This document shows, in pieces, positions 8,372-19,256 of a DNA stretch of 64,000 nt. Source of the stretch: Gemmatimonadota bacterium (GTDB lineage Bacteria > JAAXHH01); assembly GCA_009837395.1 (NCBI GenBank), contig VXTP01000043.1:372001-436000 (forward strand). Direction: 5' to 3'. Within the stretch, counting starts at the first letter, position 1, and the number at the start of each line of letters is the position of its first letter. The notes beneath the pieces were generated by a model, which was not told the origin of the DNA, searched no databases, and worked only from the letters and a program-made list of their open reading frames with translations. Both the position numbers and the translations under genes were made by a program.

Positions 8372-9673
8372 ATGTCCGATCTGTCCCGGTACATTCAGGA
8401 AACGCCGCTTATCGACACCCACGAGCATCTCCGGTTCGAGGACGACTGGGTCGCCAATGGGCCGGACGTGTTGCAGGACCTCTTCGAGAACTACGTCCCG
8501 GCGGATCTCGTGGTCGCCGGCGCTTCACAGGAGGTTGTAAACGCCCTGCTGGATCCCCGGAAGGGCGACGTAGCGGCGCGCTTCGAGCCGGTCCGGTCGG
8601 CCTGGGAGTCCGTGAAGCATACGGGATACGGTGAAGCGGTGCGCATCCTGGCGGAAGACGTGTACGGCATGGCCGAGATTACCGTCGACGGCCTGGCGGC
8701 GGCACAGGCCGAGAACGACAGACTGCGGGGCCCCGGCCAGCGCCTGGCGCTGTTGCGGGACCGCGCGGGCCTGGATCACGTGCAGATCGACAACTTCGTC
8801 TGGGCGTGCGAACCGGATGTCTCCGGACCGGATTTCTTTCTCTACGATCTTTCCTGGGTGGGATTCTGCAACGGCGAAGTGCCTGTAGAGAAAATCGCGG
8901 AGGAAACAGGGATTACCGTGGACAGTCTCGGCAGCCTGCGCGATGCCATGGCCGCGATTTTCGCAAAGCACGGTCCTCATGCCATCGCCGTCAAGGCGCA
9001 GCACGCCTATTCAAGGACGCTCCGGTGGGAGGAACGCAGCGACGAGGAAGCGGCAAGGGCCCTGGATGTCGTGCTGCGTAATCCCGATGGCGCACCGGAG
9101 GAAGCCGCGCTGTGCCTGGGTGACTGGGGCTGGGCGCGGGGCGTGGAACTATCCATCGAACACAACCTGCCGTTCAAGATCCACACCGGTTACTACGCGG
9201 GCCACAGCCGGATGCCGGTGGATCGGATAAAGAGCGGAAACCTTTGCGGTCTACTGGCACGCTACCTCAACGCCCGGTTCGTGCTGATGCACATCGCCTA
9301 CCCCTACAGCCACGAGTTGATCGCGCTGGCCAAGCACTACCCCAACGTCTGGGTGGACCTCTGCTGGGCCTGGTCTATCGACCCGTTCAGTTCCTGCGAT
9401 TTCGTCCGCCGGTTCATCCATGCCGTGCCGATCAACAAGCTGTTCGCTTTCGGAGGGGACACCGGCTGGCCCACCAGTGCCTATGCCTACGCGGTGCAGG
9501 CGCGGAGGTGGCTCGGCCGCGCCCTGGAAGGCGAAGTGAACGACGGCCTCCTCACCGAAAAACAGGCGATGGACGTGGCGCTCCGGCTCATGCAGACCAA
9601 CCAGCGGGAGTGTTTTGATATCAGCGGAACGCGGGCGAGTATCGCGCGGTCCCTGGAATCCGTCGGAGCCTAA
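8372..9673 (+). CDS. Amidohydrolase-family metal-dependent hydrolase
   Basis: The 433-residue protein opens with 'PLIDTHEHL', the HxH metal-binding motif of the amidohydrolase-2 TIM barrel (His17, His19). Later come 'LPFKIHTGYYAGH' (third His), 'FVLMHIAYPY' (fourth His) and 'KLFAFGGDTGWPTS' (catalytic Asp). The long insertion after the first strand and the 'GDTGW' end recall uronate isomerase-like and decarboxylase-like branches, but the substrate is unassigned. GGAGGG lies 6 nt before the ATG. It sits alone between two tRNA genes, 67 bp after tRNA-Arg. Confidence 0.8.
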   Translation: MSDLSRYIQETPLIDTHEHLRFEDDWVANGPDVLQDLFENYVPADLVVAGASQEVVNALLDPRKGDVAARFEPVRSAWESVKHTGYGEAVRILAEDVYGMAEITVDGLAAAQAENDRLRGPGQRLALLRDRAGLDHVQIDNFVWACEPDVSGPDFFLYDLSWVGFCNGEVPVEKIAEETGITVDSLGSLRDAMAAIFAKHGPHAIAVKAQHAYSRTLRWEERSDEEAARALDVVLRNPDGAPEEAALCLGDWGWARGVELSIEHNLPFKIHTGYYAGHSRMPVDRIKSGNLCGLLARYLNARFVLMHIAYPYSHELIALAKHYPNVWVDLCWAWSIDPFSSCDFVRRFIHAVPINKLFAFGGDTGWPTSAYAYAVQARRWLGRALEGEVNDGLLTEKQAMDVALRLMQTNQRECFDISGTRASIARSLESVGA

Positions 9674-9680
9674 AAACGGG

Positions 9681-9709
9681 TTGCGATCGGGTAGGTCGTG
9701 CCTTATATT
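9681..9709 (+). promoter_or_regulatory. Candidate sigma-70 promoter for tRNA-Thr
   Basis: TTGCGA (9681-9686), a 17-bp spacer and TATATT (9704-9709) lie 17 bp before the tRNA-Thr 5' end. This is a plausible spacing for a stable-RNA promoter with a short leader. Confidence 0.5.
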
Positions 9710-9726
9710 TAGCGCGGTTTTACCAA

Positions 9727-9799
9727 GCCACGATAGCTCAGTTGGTAGAGCAATTCATTCGTAATGAATAGGTCGTCGGTTCGAGTCCGACTCGTGGCT
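9727..9799 (+). tRNA. tRNA-Thr (anticodon CGU)
   Basis: The acceptor stem GCCACGA pairs perfectly with TCGTGGC (9792-9798). The D arm is GCTC/GAGC, the anticodon stem ATTCA/TGAAT encloses TTCGTAA (anticodon CGT), and the T arm is GTCGG/CCGAC. CCA is not encoded. The last 45 nt are antisense to the 3' end of the PKS gene, whose stop codon (9757-9755) falls inside the anticodon stem. Confidence 0.96.
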
Positions 9800-12700
9800 T
9801 TCCAACACCTCCAGCAACGTGTCGACTGTCTGTTCTATGGCGGTCTCCGACTGCAAGGTCTCTACCGGAATCGACACGTGTAATCCCGCTTCGATCCGGT
9901 TCCTCAATTCCACGGCCATGAGGGAATCCACCCCCAGACTGCGCCACGTGTTCCCCAGGTCCACGCTCCCACGGTCCACTTCCACGATCCGGCTGATCGC
10001 ATCGGACACGAATTCCTCGATGTAAGCTCGCAGTTTGTCCATGGGCAGCGCATTCAAGTCCGCCTTCGGTAGCGGTGTAATCGACTGTGGTGCGCGTTCC
10101 GGACGATCATCTGGTGACAGGTACGGTGCGAGCAGCGACTCTCCCGCGGGTTCCGTCGTTGGGATCACGCCGACGCGGTGGACATCACGACGCAACAACT
10201 GGTCGAGCAGCGCACCAGCCTCAGCAGGCGGGATCGATCGCAGTCCCTGCCGCCTGAGACGATCGGCGGCGTGTTCGGCTGACGCCATGCCCGCGCCTTC
10301 CCAGGGACCCCAGTTGATCGACGTCACCGGCAGGCCCTCCTGGCGCCTGAGGTCGGCCAGACCGTCCAGATAGGCATTCGCGGCGGCGTAGGACGCCTGG
10401 CCCGCGGTGCCGACGATGGAAGCCGCCGATGAAAACAGGACGAAGAGATCCAGTTCGAGATCTTTTGTAAACTCGTGCAGTAGCCAGGCGCCGGTTGTCT
10501 TGGGTCCGAGGACCTTGCGGAACCTATTCGCGTCCTGGGTGAGCAGAATGCCGTCGTCCAGCATGCCGGCCGCGTGGAAAACACCCCTGACCGGCCCGTG
10601 CTCCGCCCGCAGGTCCGTTATGAGTTGTCCAATTGCCCCCCGGTCGGTCACGTCGGCCCGCACATACCTGACGTTGCCGGCAGGATCGGATACCAACGCT
10701 GTCTCCTCGACTCTTCTCCGGCCCGTGACGACCACCACGCCGGCTCCCCGGTCGAGCAGCCAGCCGGTCAGAAACCGGCCGATCCCACCCGCGCCGCCCG
10801 TGACGAGGTAGGTTCCTCCCGGGCGAATGACAGGATCGTCGCCGCCCAGGAGCACCGTAATCGGCGCGCCGTCATCCACGAGCACCAGTTTGCCCGTGTG
10901 CCGGGCCTGCGACATGAACCGGAAGGCCTCCGGCGCCTGTTCCATCGGGAAGTTCCGATTGGGCAGAGGACGTATCCTGCCATCCGCGGCCATGTCGACG
11001 ATCTTCTGCAGCAAGCCGCCTGCTCGATCCGACCGTTCCTCAATGTACTGTGTTAGATCGATGGGATGATAGGAACGGTTGTGGTCGAACAGGTTCAGGT
11101 CAATGGATCCGTGGTTCAGCAAATCGGTTTTCCCGAACTCGATAAATTGCCCGTTAGAAGCCAGTACGGACATCGAAGCCCGCATGGCGGTACCGGAGAG
11201 GGTGTTGAGCACGATATCCATGCCCTTCCCATCCGTCTGCTCCATGATTTCTTCGGCGAAATCCAGCGATCGGGAATCCATTACATGGGAAATGCCCATA
11301 TTCTTTAGATAAACTCGTTTTTCTTCAGATCCGGCCGTGGCGAATACCTCGGTTTCCGCCTGCTGTGCGATCTGAATAGCGGCCAGTCCTACCCCGCCGC
11401 TCGCGTTGTGTACGAGAACGCGGTCTCCGGCGGATATCCCGCCGCGTACCACGAGCCCCAGGTACGCCGTCAGAAAGGCTACGGGCAGCGTGGCGGCCTC
11501 CTCGATGCCCAGGTGTTCGGGCTTTCGGACAACCAGGTCTGCCTTCGCCGTCACGTGTCCGGCCATGGCACCGGGCATCAACCCCATGACCACGTCGCCG
11601 ATTTCCAAGGAGTCCACCCGGTCGCCGCGCGCGATCACTTCGCCGACGCATTCCCATCCAAAGGACGGTGTCCGCCGTGATGGTCCCTTCAGCATGCCGA
11701 GGGCGGTCAGCACGTCCCGGAAATTCAACGCGGCCGCCCGTACGCGAATGACCACCTCGTCTGGCCCGGGTTGGGATTCAGGTTTCGTTTCGAAATGGAG
11801 GTCGTCGATTGAGCCGGGTGAGGACTGTGCCAGTACGTAACTTGTTTTTGAACAAGCGGTTATGGGTACGGTTTTCGCATCGCTCCGCTCCTGATCGAAG
11901 GGAACCAGACGGCGGGTATAAACATCAGGCTCCCTCAGTGCGATTTCACCGGGTGATGAGTCCGTCCCAACGATTTCGGCGAGACGTTCAATGTCTATCT
12001 CCTCATCCATCCCGCCGGTCCCGGCCGGGAGATCGATCAGCGTACAGTCCAACTCGGGATGTTCTCGCATGGCGACCCGTCCGCAGCCCCAGATCGACGC
12101 ATATGCCGGCGATACAAGGTCGTCTGCCTTCACGGACTGCGCGCCCGCCGTAATCAGCCGCAGGCGGCACGGAAGATCCGGGTTGTCCAGTACGGTGCGG
12201 ACTAGTTCGAAGGATTCCAGGGCGGGGCCGGTGTGCCCGAAGGACTGCTCGCCTGACTGCCGGTTACCGCCTCCCGTCCAGATTCTTGCCAATCCAATGT
12301 AGCTGCCACTTTCGCATTCTACGGATCCCAGTTTATCGGACAGCGCGCCCAGGTTCTTCTCCAATTCACGGCCGGATATGTCGATGCATTCACGCTCCAC
12401 ACCGGGACGCGACAGGGCGTCGGTCAGTTCGCGCCCGAGTCTACGGTCGTCCGAAAGCACGAACCAGTGAGAGACCGGACCGGGTTGCAGGTTTTCCACC
12501 CAGTTGTTGTCGGCTACCCACTCCTCGCAGTACAGTCCTTGGGGGTTGTTGTTGACGTTGCGACGGCTTCCCCAGCCGCTCGCCCGGGACAGGGTCACGC
12601 CTTCCAGGGCCACCACGGGAAGGCCCTTTTCGTCTACAAGATACACGTCGGACAACAGGTCGTTTCCATCCGGGGCTTCTCGCAGTCTCGCATAGGCAAC

Positions 12701-15700: not shown

Positions 15701-16273
15701 GGTCTGGATGTCGCGGCAGGCCAGATGTATGGCGGTCAGCGATGAAGAACAGGCCGTGTCCACCGCGAGGCTCGGGCCCTTCAGGTCCAGGAAGTAGGAG
15801 ATCCGGTTCGCCGCGATGCTCAGCGTTCCGCCCGTATTGGTGTGCATGCCGACTTGCGAAGGCGCGGCATACCGCTGCAGGTCCCAGTATTCGTCCAGGA
15901 AGATCCCCATGTACACTCCGACGGGCCGGCCTTCCAGCCTGGCCGGGGGGATCCGCGCGTCTTCCAGCGCTTCCCACGCGAGTTCGAGCAGGATGCGCTG
16001 CTGGGGATCGATGTGACGGGCTTCCCGGGGAGAGATGTTGAAGAACGCCGCGTCGAACCGGTCGATTTCGTCGACGAATCCGCCCAATTCGGGAAAATCC
16101 CCGCCGTCCGGCCACGGTTTCCACAGCGATTTCCGCTCATCCGGAACCGGACGAATAGCGTCTCCGCCGTTCAGGACGAATTCCCAGAAGGACTGGGGGG
16201 TCGACAATCCCCCCGATATCCCCCCGGGAAACCGGCAGGAGATGCCGGTTATGGCTATGGGTTCACCGGACAT
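9755..16273 (-). CDS. Mono-modular, fully reducing type I polyketide synthase (KS-AT-DH-ER-KR-ACP)
   Basis: This 2172-residue multi-domain synthase has these domains in order. Ketosynthase, 1-430: Cys175 in DTACSSS, His310 in EAHGTGTPTG, His351 in NIGHTEA. Acyltransferase, about 580-890: Ser674 in GHSVGE and 'AYHSGQM', closer to malonyl- than methylmalonyl-type. Dehydratase, about 960-1230: His990 in an HxxxDxxxxP variant, Asp1155 in LDAGLQ. A structural subdomain, about 1250-1460, without a SAM-binding motif. Enoylreductase, about 1480-1800: GGVGLAAIQ. Ketoreductase, about 1815-2010: GGAGGIG, LDD, Lys1925, Ser1949, Tyr1962. ACP, about 2085-2155: Ser2117 in GVDSL. No thioesterase is present. 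All reductive centres look intact, so it should make a saturated acyl chain iteratively, like a FAS. It overlaps the lipM-like gene by 11 nt. The product is unknown; mono-modular Sup/Swf enzymes of sponge symbionts are the closest architectural idea. Confidence 0.93.
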   Translation of the reverse strand: MSGEPIAITGISCRFPGGISGGLSTPQSFWEFVLNGGDAIRPVPDERKSLWKPWPDGGDFPELGGFVDEIDRFDAAFFNISPREARHIDPQQRILLELAWEALEDARIPPARLEGRPVGVYMGIFLDEYWDLQRYAAPSQVGMHTNTGGTLSIAANRISYFLDLKGPSLAVDTACSSSLTAIHLACRDIQTGTCTTALAGGANLLLTPQTTRGFEQAQMLSPDGRCRAFDQGANGYGRSDGAGIVVLKRLSDAVDDGDEVYAVIHGSAINQDGRSRGLTVPGQSAQEAVIEAAARAGGVSAAQFAFVEAHGTGTPTGDPIEAMAIGRATGEGRVTDGADCLIGSVKTNIGHTEAAAGVAGLIKAALTFKHGVLPPSLHFEKPNPDIPFEELGLKVATEPVSIPGPAIAGVNSFGFGGANAHVVLGSPPVTDSVGLASLPALESAGSAAGARPGGGPTDVAVPENVPAGVEKDGSRSAVDQRGSSDQRQTDQRVPQILVLSARSTAALKEKASDTASLLRYDPGTPPGDLAAALALHRSHLDHRLALVVEDSTEAARDLETFCAGGIPERFETGRIEAKATPVAFVFTGMGPQWYGMGQALYDSAPAYREALGEFDRLFAAVSGTSLLEMMQSGTSGERMADVEVAQPANMALQWALAAQWRSLGVDPQFVVGHSVGEIAGACVTGALSLEEGVRIIYQRSRLQKVMQGRGEMLAVGVSSDEAEELIEPYGDGLSIAAVNSPVSVTIAGDGVVIDRLHAALEDRQLFCQKLHTEIAYHSGQMDGIRDDFLASLNGLAPSKTRVPLLSTVTGIRADGTELDADHWWRNIRSPVLFNRIFAQIPGDGEALYIQIGPHPVLSAAIYENLAQCGRTGHALASLRRDRGAWDVLLESVARCYVHGHDIHWERLVDPPRTSLQLPLYPWQKEQYWLDGMTTPQGGLDSQEDSERPGGPGGRYSRPLIGRAVESSVDPDSRVWERAISLASHPILADHTVLDRSIMPLAGQIEMLFETLEETEISVTFSDLKLLHPLLLPESGAHRVQIVHGRNRYTLSSRPESQESAARWLAHMRTERSPLSGVSGVAGSAEHIDLDAVRTRCDRRITHRRFYERAAELGFQYGPAFRQVDDVVYAEREALVSPVSCEEGHGPYRLHPGVLDAGLQALLLLVPDDGPYLPVGVKTIVLQRLPESDEVLVAYARLREAPDGNDLLSDVYLVDEKGLPVVALEGVTLSRASGWGSRRNVNNNPQGLYCEEWVADNNWVENLQPGPVSHWFVLSDDRRLGRELTDALSRPGVERECIDISGRELEKNLGALSDKLGSVECESGSYIGLARIWTGGGNRQSGEQSFGHTGPALESFELVRTVLDNPDLPCRLRLITAGAQSVKADDLVSPAYASIWGCGRVAMREHPELDCTLIDLPAGTGGMDEEIDIERLAEIVGTDSSPGEIALREPDVYTRRLVPFDQERSDAKTVPITACSKTSYVLAQSSPGSIDDLHFETKPESQPGPDEVVIRVRAAALNFRDVLTALGMLKGPSRRTPSFGWECVGEVIARGDRVDSLEIGDVVMGLMPGAMAGHVTAKADLVVRKPEHLGIEEAATLPVAFLTAYLGLVVRGGISAGDRVLVHNASGGVGLAAIQIAQQAETEVFATAGSEEKRVYLKNMGISHVMDSRSLDFAEEIMEQTDGKGMDIVLNTLSGTAMRASMSVLASNGQFIEFGKTDLLNHGSIDLNLFDHNRSYHPIDLTQYIEERSDRAGGLLQKIVDMAADGRIRPLPNRNFPMEQAPEAFRFMSQARHTGKLVLVDDGAPITVLLGGDDPVIRPGGTYLVTGGAGGIGRFLTGWLLDRGAGVVVVTGRRRVEETALVSDPAGNVRYVRADVTDRGAIGQLITDLRAEHGPVRGVFHAAGMLDDGILLTQDANRFRKVLGPKTTGAWLLHEFTKDLELDLFVLFSSAASIVGTAGQASYAAANAYLDGLADLRRQEGLPVTSINWGPWEGAGMASAEHAADRLRRQGLRSIPPAEAGALLDQLLRRDVHRVGVIPTTEPAGESLLAPYLSPDDRPERAPQSITPLPKADLNALPMDKLRAYIEEFVSDAISRIVEVDRGSVDLGNTWRSLGVDSLMAVELRNRIEAGLHVSIPVETLQSETAIEQTVDTLLEVLESHESDSNRRPIHYE

Positions 16274-17150
16274 GGCTCGCGGTCCTGCGATGGGTCCAGG
16301 CGGCGTTTGCGTACCGGGTTCGGACCAACGACTCGGCTACTCGCCGCTCCTCCGCGTCCAGCACGTCCATTCGACCTTCCACGTTCAGGCGGTCGAGCAT
16401 CGAACGGGACAGGCGGTCGGTCCATTCCTCGAAGGAGGGCGGATCGGGGATCAATTCGGCAACGGAGACGGTCCGGCGGTTCAGCAACCGGGCGATGGTC
16501 TCCCGGCGTTCCGGTTCGTGGGCGGCCATCAGCAGGGAAAGCCTTCGGTGTCCCGGCCCCAGGAGCAGGGATCCGTGCTGCAGCACAACTCCCCGGGATC
16601 GGCGCTGGGCGCTGCCGGCCAGTTTTCTGCCGGCCACCGTGATCTCGTAACGTCCAGTGGCCGTGAAGCATACGTCGTCATTGCCTCCTGAACCGCAACG
16701 CCCTTCCATCGCCGGCTCGGCGGATATATCGAAGTACTTCAGCGTTTCAACCAGCGCCTCGCTCACCGCGCGGAGCATCACGCCGGACCCGCCTCCCAGG
16801 GCGGGATGGGCTTCCGGCGCGACCAGGCTGTAGGTCAGTTCCTGGTCGTGCAGTACCGCGCGTCCCCCGGTGATCCGCCGGACCAGGTCGATGCCGTACC
16901 GTTCGCATTCCCCTGGATCGACCTCTTTTTCCGCCTCCTGCCCGTATCCAATGGAAACGGCGGGCGGATGCCACGAATAGATGCGCAGCGCCATCATCTC
17001 CGCGTCTCGCCGACCCGAGTCGCCCTGGCCCGCGTCCGGCCGGCTCGCGTCCCGCCGGCTCGCGTCCCGCCGGCACGAATCCAGCAGCGCTTCGTCCACG
17101 GCCATGTTGTACGCGGCGGAACATCCGGGCGTGGTAAGTATGCGAATCAT
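16263..17150 (-). CDS. LipM/LplA-family octanoyl- or lipoate-protein ligase with a repeat insertion
   Basis: The 295-residue protein is of the biotin/lipoate A/B ligase fold. Diagnostic motifs are 'RRITGGRAVLHDQELTYS' (about 91-108), Cys161 in DVCF, Lys176 in GRKLAGSAQ and 'LQHGSLLL'. A Cys in this position together with the Lys favours LipM-type octanoyltransferase, which moves octanoate from octanoyl-ACP to a lipoyl domain, over ATP-dependent LplA. Residues 27-50 are an insertion of about five degenerate RRDAS-type pentapeptides, absent from relatives and encoded by a 15-bp tandem repeat. The gene overlaps rnc by 4 nt and the PKS by 11 nt. Placement behind the FAS II genes fits use of octanoyl-ACP. 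Confidence 0.8.
   Translation of the reverse strand: MIRILTTPGCSAAYNMAVDEALLDSCRRDASRRDASRPDAGQGDSGRRDAEMMALRIYSWHPPAVSIGYGQEAEKEVDPGECERYGIDLVRRITGGRAVLHDQELTYSLVAPEAHPALGGGSGVMLRAVSEALVETLKYFDISAEPAMEGRCGSGGNDDVCFTATGRYEITVAGRKLAGSAQRRSRGVVLQHGSLLLGPGHRRLSLLMAAHEPERRETIARLLNRRTVSVAELIPDPPSFEEWTDRLSRSMLDRLNVEGRMDVLDAEERRVAESLVRTRYANAAWTHRRTASHVR
17000..17072. repeat. 15-bp tandem repeat inside the lipM-like gene
   Basis: About five degenerate 15-bp units of the form GTCCCGCCGGCTCGC (plus strand) are in frame with the gene and encode the RRDAS-like pentapeptides. The last two units on this strand are nearly identical, which suggests recent expansion. Confidence 0.75.
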
Positions 17151-17974
17151 GACCGATCGACGGCGCGGTTGGACTGCAGCTGCTCCACGGCCTGCCGCGC
17201 GGCATCCTGTTCCGCGTTCTTTTTGCTGGTGCCCGTGCCTTTGCTGACGGGATTGCCGGCGACGAAGACCTCGATGGTGAAGATCTTCTCATGGTCGGGA
17301 CCCACGGCGGAATCGACGCGATATTCCGGCTGGCCGATGCCTTCGCCCTGCGTGTATTCCAGCAGCGCGCTCTTGTAGTTCCGCGAGTGACCGACTTCGG
17401 AGGGACGTTCCGTACTCAGCTCCTGCAGCAGGGTACGGTTCAGGAAGCGTCTGACCGGCGGGAGCCCGCCGTCCAGGTAGATGGCGCCGATGATGGATTC
17501 GTAGGCATCGGACAGGATCGAATGGCGAAACCGCCCGCCGGATCGGGCTTCACTGGTACTCAGCAGCACATAGCGTCCGAGCTTCATCGCCCGGGCCTGG
17601 CGGGCGAGCGCCTTCCGGTTAACCAGCGTGGACCGGAGCTGGGTCAGCTGGCCCTCGCGGCGTCCGGGGTACTTGTGGTATATGAACTCGCCGACCACGA
17701 GATCCAGCACCGCGTCGCCCAGGAACTCCAGCCGCTCGTTGGAGTGCACGCCCGACTGCTCCCGGGAATACACGTAGGAACGGTGCTTGAGCGCCGTGAT
17801 AAGGTAATCGGGGTTCTTGAAGCGGTAGTCGATGTATTTCTGAACCTGGCGTACGTTTTCACGTTCAAGGGCCGTTCGGTTCGCGGCTTGACCGGAAGCG
17901 CCGCCTTTCAGGCCCGAGACCAGGGCACTGGCCGCGCGCCGCAGCTTCTGCAGAATGGAATGCCGATTTGGCAC
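17147..17974 (-). CDS. rnc: Ribonuclease III
   Basis: The 275-residue endonuclease cleaves double-stranded RNA, for example rRNA precursors. The signature 'NERLEFLGDAVLDLVV' at about 79-94 carries the catalytic acidic residues, with a second acidic cluster in 'LSDAYESIIGAIYLD'. The C-terminal double-stranded RNA-binding domain runs from 'NYKSALLEYTQG' to 'SKKNAEQDAARQAVEQL'. The N-terminus carries about 35 extra residues, basic at first and then Gly/Ala-rich. It lies 40 bp after fabF, the common bacterial fabF-rnc order, and overlaps the lipM-like gene by 4 nt (ATGA). Confidence 0.95.
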   Translation of the reverse strand: MPNRHSILQKLRRAASALVSGLKGGASGQAANRTALERENVRQVQKYIDYRFKNPDYLITALKHRSYVYSREQSGVHSNERLEFLGDAVLDLVVGEFIYHKYPGRREGQLTQLRSTLVNRKALARQARAMKLGRYVLLSTSEARSGGRFRHSILSDAYESIIGAIYLDGGLPPVRRFLNRTLLQELSTERPSEVGHSRNYKSALLEYTQGEGIGQPEYRVDSAVGPDHEKIFTIEVFVAGNPVSKGTGTSKKNAEQDAARQAVEQLQSNRAVDRS

Positions 17975-18014
17975 GGTAGTCCCCGAAGCACGTCCGAGGC
18001 TTTTCGGAAAGAAG

Positions 18015-19256
18015 CTACGCCGTGTGTTTCTTTACCACGAGCGTCACGTTATGCCCTCCGAAACCGAACGAATTGGTTAAGGCCGCCCTCACTTCCCGTT
18101 CCCGGCCCGCGTTGGGGACATAGTCCAGGTCGCAATCGGGATCGGGCTCCTCGTAATTGATGGTGGGATGGACGTAATCGCGGGCGACGGACAGCGTGGT
18201 CGCGATGAACTCGACCCCTCCGGACGCCCCCAGGAGGTGGCCAACGAGTGATTTGGTGGAACTGATCGTCAGGCTGCGCGCATGATCCCCGAAGACCTTT
18301 TTGATGGCCAGGGTTTCGATGCGGTCGTTGAATGGCGTGGACGTGCCATGGGCGTTGATGTAGTCGATTTCGTCCACGGCCAGTCCGGCGTTCTGAAGCG
18401 CCAGGTGCATGGATCGCGCCGCGCCTTCGCCCGATTCGTGAGGTTGGGTGATATGAAAGGCATCCGCCGTCGCGGCATAGCCCGCCAGTTCGGCGTAGAT
18501 CGCCGCACCGCGCCGCTGCGCGTGAGACAGGGTCTCGAGGACGACCATGCCGGCGCCTTCGCCGAGCACGAATCCGTCCCGCTGGGCATCGAAAGGCCTG
18601 CTGGCCCGTTCCGGCTCGTCATTTCGCAGGGACAGGGCCCGCATGTTGCTGAACCCGGCCACGGCCATGGGGGATATGCTGGCCTCCGTGCCGCCGGTGA
18701 CCATGACGTCCGCGTCCCCGTGCTGCAGGATCCGGAACGCGTCGCCGATGCCGTGCGCGCCGCTGGAACAGGCCGACACCGTGGTGTAGTTGGGTCCTTT
18801 CAGGCCATGTATCATCGAGATATGGCCGGGCGCCATGTCCGCGATCATCATGGGGATAAAAAAGGGACTCACGCGTCCGGGGCCCTTGTTTACCAGGTTG
18901 GTATGCTGGTTTTCGAAGGTCCATATCCCGCCGACACCTGTACCCATTACCACCCCGATGCGGTCCCGGTCCTCGGCATCGAGATCCAGCCCGGAGTCGT
19001 CGATCGCCATCTGCGCCGCGATCACGGCGTATTGGACGTTTTCGTCCATTCGCCGCACTTCTTTCCGGTCGATGTAGTCCGCCGCGCTGAAGTCCTTCAA
19101 TTCGGCGGCGATTTTCGCCGGAAAGGCGCTCACATCGAATTTCGTAATGGGCCCTACGCCGCTCCGACCCGCGCAAAGGGCCTGCCAGTAGGTATCGAGC
19201 GTGAGACCCACGGGGCTCAGGACGCCCATACCGGTGACGACAACGCGTTCAGCCAC
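18015..19256 (-). CDS. fabF: 3-oxoacyl-ACP synthase II
   Basis: The 413-residue condensing enzyme elongates acyl-ACP with malonyl-ACP in type II fatty acid synthesis. The catalytic triad is visible: Cys163 in SACSSG, His303 in NAHGTSTPFND and His340 in LVGHLLGASG. The C-terminal 'NSFGFGGHN' is conserved. Length matches FabF. It follows acpP by 109 bp, a gap partly filled by an 18-bp triple repeat. No fabH is present in the cluster, so initiation must be encoded elsewhere or by another enzyme. Confidence 0.96.
   Translation of the reverse strand: MAERVVVTGMGVLSPVGLTLDTYWQALCAGRSGVGPITKFDVSAFPAKIAAELKDFSAADYIDRKEVRRMDENVQYAVIAAQMAIDDSGLDLDAEDRDRIGVVMGTGVGGIWTFENQHTNLVNKGPGRVSPFFIPMMIADMAPGHISMIHGLKGPNYTTVSACSSGAHGIGDAFRILQHGDADVMVTGGTEASISPMAVAGFSNMRALSLRNDEPERASRPFDAQRDGFVLGEGAGMVVLETLSHAQRRGAAIYAELAGYAATADAFHITQPHESGEGAARSMHLALQNAGLAVDEIDYINAHGTSTPFNDRIETLAIKKVFGDHARSLTISSTKSLVGHLLGASGGVEFIATTLSVARDYVHPTINYEEPDPDCDLDYVPNAGREREVRAALTNSFGFGGHNVTLVVKKHTA

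Follow-up and report, generated by a model that had tools for sequence, protein, structure and literature searches.

The type I polyketide synthase (PKS) gene of the window, the 64,000-nt stretch of DNA analysed here, ends inside the complement of a tRNA-Thr gene. In all probability the PKS reading frame was extended neutrally at its 3' end into a convergent tRNA gene, where the neutrality and the order of events are what we infer. The two genes lie on opposite strands with their 3' ends overlapping by 45 nt and thus form a convergent overlap. The coordinates of the open reading frame, of ARAGORN and of Rfam agree with the sequence-only reading that the PKS 3' end is antisense to tRNA-Thr and stops in the anticodon stem. 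The features of the region are:

8372 to 9673, plus strand: amidohydrolase gene, upstream of tRNA-Thr and co-directional with it (on another contig in the outgroups)
9681 to 9709, plus strand: tRNA-Thr promoter-like sequence, TTGCGA-N17-TATATT (9/12 matches, 0.2 expected)
9727 to 9799, plus strand: tRNA-Thr(CGT) (Rfam RF00005, 73.3 bits; ARAGORN 9726-9800)
9755 to 9799, minus strand: PKS/tRNA-Thr overlap, 14 codons SHESDSNRRPIHYE and TGA (tRNA complement from the discriminator to the anticodon stem)
9800 to 9830, minus strand: end of the ACP region next to the junction, variable (junction table and tails of the relatives)
16273 to 9755, minus strand: type I PKS with the domains KS-AT-DH-ER-KR-ACP, 2172 aa (ORF call and Pfam)
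16263 to 19256, minus strand: lipoate/biotin ligase-like gene, rnc (RNase III) and fabF, upstream of the PKS (order conserved in the family)

By its Pfam domains (ketoacyl-synt, Acyl_transf_1, PS-DH, ADH_zinc_N, KR and PP-binding) the PKS is a real, conserved coding gene and not a shadow ORF, with its stop in the tRNA complement. A thioesterase domain was not found by Pfam in the 2172-aa protein. The PP-binding match, representing the ACP, covers residues 2089-2149, and the tail begins ten residues past it. Residues 2159-2172 together with the TGA fill positions 9799 to 9755 exactly, confirming that the last 14 residues and the stop are read from the tRNA complement; all 45 nt are located inside the mature tRNA. 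The stop had been proposed to be captured from the tRNA, and indeed the TGA lies opposite T9755-C9756-A9757, the three innermost bases on the 5' side of the anticodon stem. The span 9727-9799 of the tRNA gene fits a 7-bp acceptor stem plus the discriminator T9799. The anticodon is at 9760-9762, the anticodon stem 9753-9757 pairs with 9765-9769, and CCA is not encoded.

Once the PKS abuts the tRNA, the length of the overlap is unremarkable. Of the three frames of the tRNA-Thr complement, one stays open for 14 codons, one for 19 and one throughout the tRNA; with the base composition of tRNA-Thr, a run of 14 or more open codons has a probability of about 0.52. Length and phase are as predicted by reading on to the next stop. 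Among the relatives, the letters of the tail are identical only where the frame is shared, and the end of the ACP just upstream varies; this is what the constraint on the tRNA alone predicts. Following a complete ACP, the tail is most likely tolerated rather than used, as judged from the sequences.

The relatives compared were 11 congeners and two confamilial MAGs of other genera (Latescibacterota group); the search also returned two members of the order. One congener (G009) was left out of the junction comparison, its contigs not covering the junction, and in another (G011) the junction is split over two contigs. Five genomes (G000, G002, G003, G008, G010) present the same tRNA-complement tail and the TGA in the anticodon stem. 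The PKS of G007 ends in LKATSRT in another frame, with a TGA in the T-arm region of the tRNA complement, while in G006 a TAG is positioned immediately before tRNA-Thr. In G001, G004 and G005 the PKS stops about 1 kb from tRNA-Thr, a K+ channel ORF occupies the gap and the tail is missing. In the two outgroup genera (G012, G013) the stop is about 100 and 108 nt short of tRNA-Thr. The orthologues end in LEG, LKATSRT, LKAESRP, LKSTEHG and LKAQRSG, each directly before the stop, so that the window gene is the one extended at its 3' end. Homology does cease before the tail. A homologue with the tail but without an abutting tRNA had been named in advance as speaking against the sequence-only reading, and none of those examined is of this kind. 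The junctions differ by single nucleotides and by substitutions in the last PKS codons, and these differences select the frame and thereby the stop that ends the PKS. One of the three stop outcomes is common to five of the seven abutting genomes that can be read, which could hint at a weak preference, but common descent explains it too.

At the junction of G011 an insertion was found, with a 14-bp direct repeat GGCTTTCAACCCCT on both sides that spans the tRNA end. The two contigs both end within the insertion (L075:1-185, L076:1-270); the tRNA side reads TGGCTTTCAACCCCT and the PKS side CGGCTTTCAACCCCT. A search for the remainder of the insert retrieved just the contig ends themselves. Since the repeat is present at both sides, as an insertion into a G007-type abutting junction would leave it, the case is consistent with an abutting origin, and G011 was counted as such. 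A tree of six concatenated proteins, with G011 included on this basis, has all eight abutting genomes to one side of a single branch (SH-aLRT 93). Support is weak for the first fork within the genus (87 and 93).

The gene between PKS and tRNA-Thr encodes a voltage-gated-like K+ channel of about 247 aa with a Pfam Ion_trans domain and a TVGYGD filter (L065, L068, L069). In the abutting genomes searched, K+ channels were present only as distant paralogues with about 34 % identity. G004 has another copy elsewhere in its genome, 61 % identical. The outgroup spacers are too short for this gene. From the sequences, it may either have been lost in the abutting clade or have been gained in the sister group.

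The order fabF-rnc-lipoate ligase-PKS, followed by the convergent tRNA-Thr, occurs in the window and also in the two outgroup genera. PKS and tRNA-Thr were therefore neighbours before the genus arose, and it is the 5' neighbourhood of the tRNA that differs: an amidohydrolase/ADH pair precedes tRNA-Thr in the window and is located on other contigs in G012 and G013. The maintenance of a one-module reducing PKS beside fabF and rnc across the family suggests that its role lies in core lipids and not in a secondary-metabolite cluster of the typical sort. Beyond fabF, acpP was read by eye from the DNA of the window.

In both outgroups the spacer can form a strong hairpin. Folding in the tRNA direction yielded -43.3 kcal/mol (z -3.7) for G012, where the opposite direction is strong as well, and -30.4 kcal/mol (z -4.1) for G013, there followed by a U-run. 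The automatic terminator scan had missed these hairpins, presumably because they depart from the pattern it looks for, a short-looped stem with a T-run immediately behind it; they came to light by folding. The ancestor of one clade of the genus would have lost the spacer between PKS and tRNA-Thr, and with it the stop codon, the terminator-like hairpin and perhaps a K+ channel gene as well. This would have brought the PKS frame into direct contact with the 3' end of tRNA-Thr; which frame continues into the tRNA complement, hence which stop is reached, may then have been set by small indels and base changes among the final PKS codons. From nearly one junction, the three outcomes would thus have emerged: the TGA of the anticodon stem, the TGA of the T-arm region in G007 and the TAG before the tRNA in G006. 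Convergent overlaps have a published neutral model in which a stop is lost and the frame continues to the next one (PMC2174442, PMC2478687).

The sequence-only reading had suggested that the PKS was joined to this site. On such an origin the PKS would have come in on a mobile island that integrated at the tRNA-Thr 3' end, its frame being completed from the tRNA in that event. The 3' ends of tRNA genes are common integration sites, and the insertion in G011 with its direct repeat sits at exactly this junction. The gene order of the other genera is in conflict with it, as PKS, its upstream genes and tRNA-Thr stand together there, with a gap between PKS and tRNA. Moreover, the tRNA-Thr 3' end occurs only once in the 64-kb window, which leaves no far-boundary repeat, and a search for the Phage_integrase family (PF00589) gave no match on the 607-kb contig (C24). 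An empty site was not seen either: the PKS is beside tRNA-Thr in G012, in G013 and in the congeners that have the region on one contig. A recent arrival of the PKS is contradicted by outgroup synteny, the single tRNA 3' end and the lack of a phage-type integrase on the contig, and integration was rejected as an origin with a very slight probability left to it; what changed was the spacer. Still fainter is the chance of an annotation or assembly artefact, in which the PKS would truly stop further upstream, its frame having been opened by a sequencing error. Frameshift errors that extend 3' ends are a known source of false convergent overlaps (PMC2478687), and at this junction differences of 1 nt do decide the frame, yet the same open frame was recovered in five separately assembled MAGs that differ in the nucleotide sequence upstream of the tRNA. 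An assembly error was dismissed as unlikely on this ground.

The transcripts of PKS and tRNA-Thr are likely to overlap, because no terminator was found between the convergent genes: the intrinsic terminator scan of the window detected no terminator-like site 3' of tRNA-Thr, and the spacer hairpins of the outgroups are gone from the window. Unterminated read-through of convergent genes that yields antisense RNA has been documented in Rickettsia (PMC3027695). The promoter-like sequence of tRNA-Thr is intact and keeps its position across the genus, and a similar one is present in the family outgroups. Together with rnc, located upstream of the PKS on the same strand, these observations would suit a selected regulatory device, in which the complementarity of PKS mRNA and tRNA precursor couples PKS output to tRNA-Thr transcription, perhaps via the RNase III encoded in the same gene row. 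We consider such a device highly improbable, since the overlap is not maintained: elsewhere in the genus there are species whose PKS ends before it reaches the tRNA or about 1 kb from it, and the housekeeping gene rnc belongs to the row with or without an overlap. The antisense strand of tRNA-Thr folds at -27.4 kcal/mol. It is conceivable, if quite improbable, that duplexes of pre-tRNA and mRNA from convergent unterminated transcription would let the strong tRNA gene set the PKS output, with the antisense-tRNA fold replacing the lost terminator as 3' end of the PKS mRNA. Neutral extension of the PKS into the tRNA gene is the reading retained.

The tRNA survey of the genome (45 rows, one of them a repeat listing of tRNA-Thr) revealed a second real coding gene that ends in a tRNA complement. 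A MarR protein (Pfam E 1e-11; G000:C17, L201:2721-3263) ends in TPGPGLEPG and a stop, having entered the complement of tRNA-Gln(TTG) by 30 nt. Four relatives (G001, G002, G006, G007) also have the MarR end within tRNA-Gln; in G003 it falls just outside, and in G004 the gene stops about 30 nt before the tRNA, a variation like that of the PKS end. Antisense ORFs over tRNA-Trp, Leu, Val and His had no Pfam match, look like shadow ORFs and were not counted.

A search in an open-access subset of the literature, which proves little, revealed no paper on this specific arrangement. In protein databases, reading frames that overlap tRNAs are familiar as a nuisance class (PMC9710616, PMC5897793): AntiFam has entries built from predicted proteins overlapping tRNAs (PMC9710616), and the translation of a tRNA at a protein N-terminus has been reported (PMC5897793). 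As in those frames, the letters of the peptide (DSNRRP, GLEPT/GLEPG type) are dictated by the tRNA, here by the complement of the T-arm. Those proteins are wholly spurious, whereas here a real, conserved enzyme carries such letters as a short tail at its C-terminus. Conserved-looking C-terminal tails may thus be tRNA complement and not protein under selection. With tRNA-associated integrative elements the junction shares a boundary at the tRNA 3' end and, in G011, a direct repeat there; it differs from them in that the window is without the repeat, the contig without a phage-type integrase and a recent arrival is not indicated. The closest resemblance is to convergent overlaps by stop loss (PMC2174442), the '3'-end extension' class (PMC2478687): the PKS is longer than its orthologues and reads on to the next available stop. 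In contrast to the convergent overlaps between two protein-coding genes (PMC2174442), its partner is tRNA-Thr, and the overlapped sequence is fixed by the structure of the tRNA. The relatives offer a clean natural series of a gene end drifting into a structurally fixed tRNA, from gapped outgroups with a terminator-like hairpin over relatives with a gene between to close relatives with three stops. The overlap is real and tidy, but it looks like the ordinary drift of a gene end; it works like a convergent overlap by stop loss and is the CDS-tRNA counterpart of that class.
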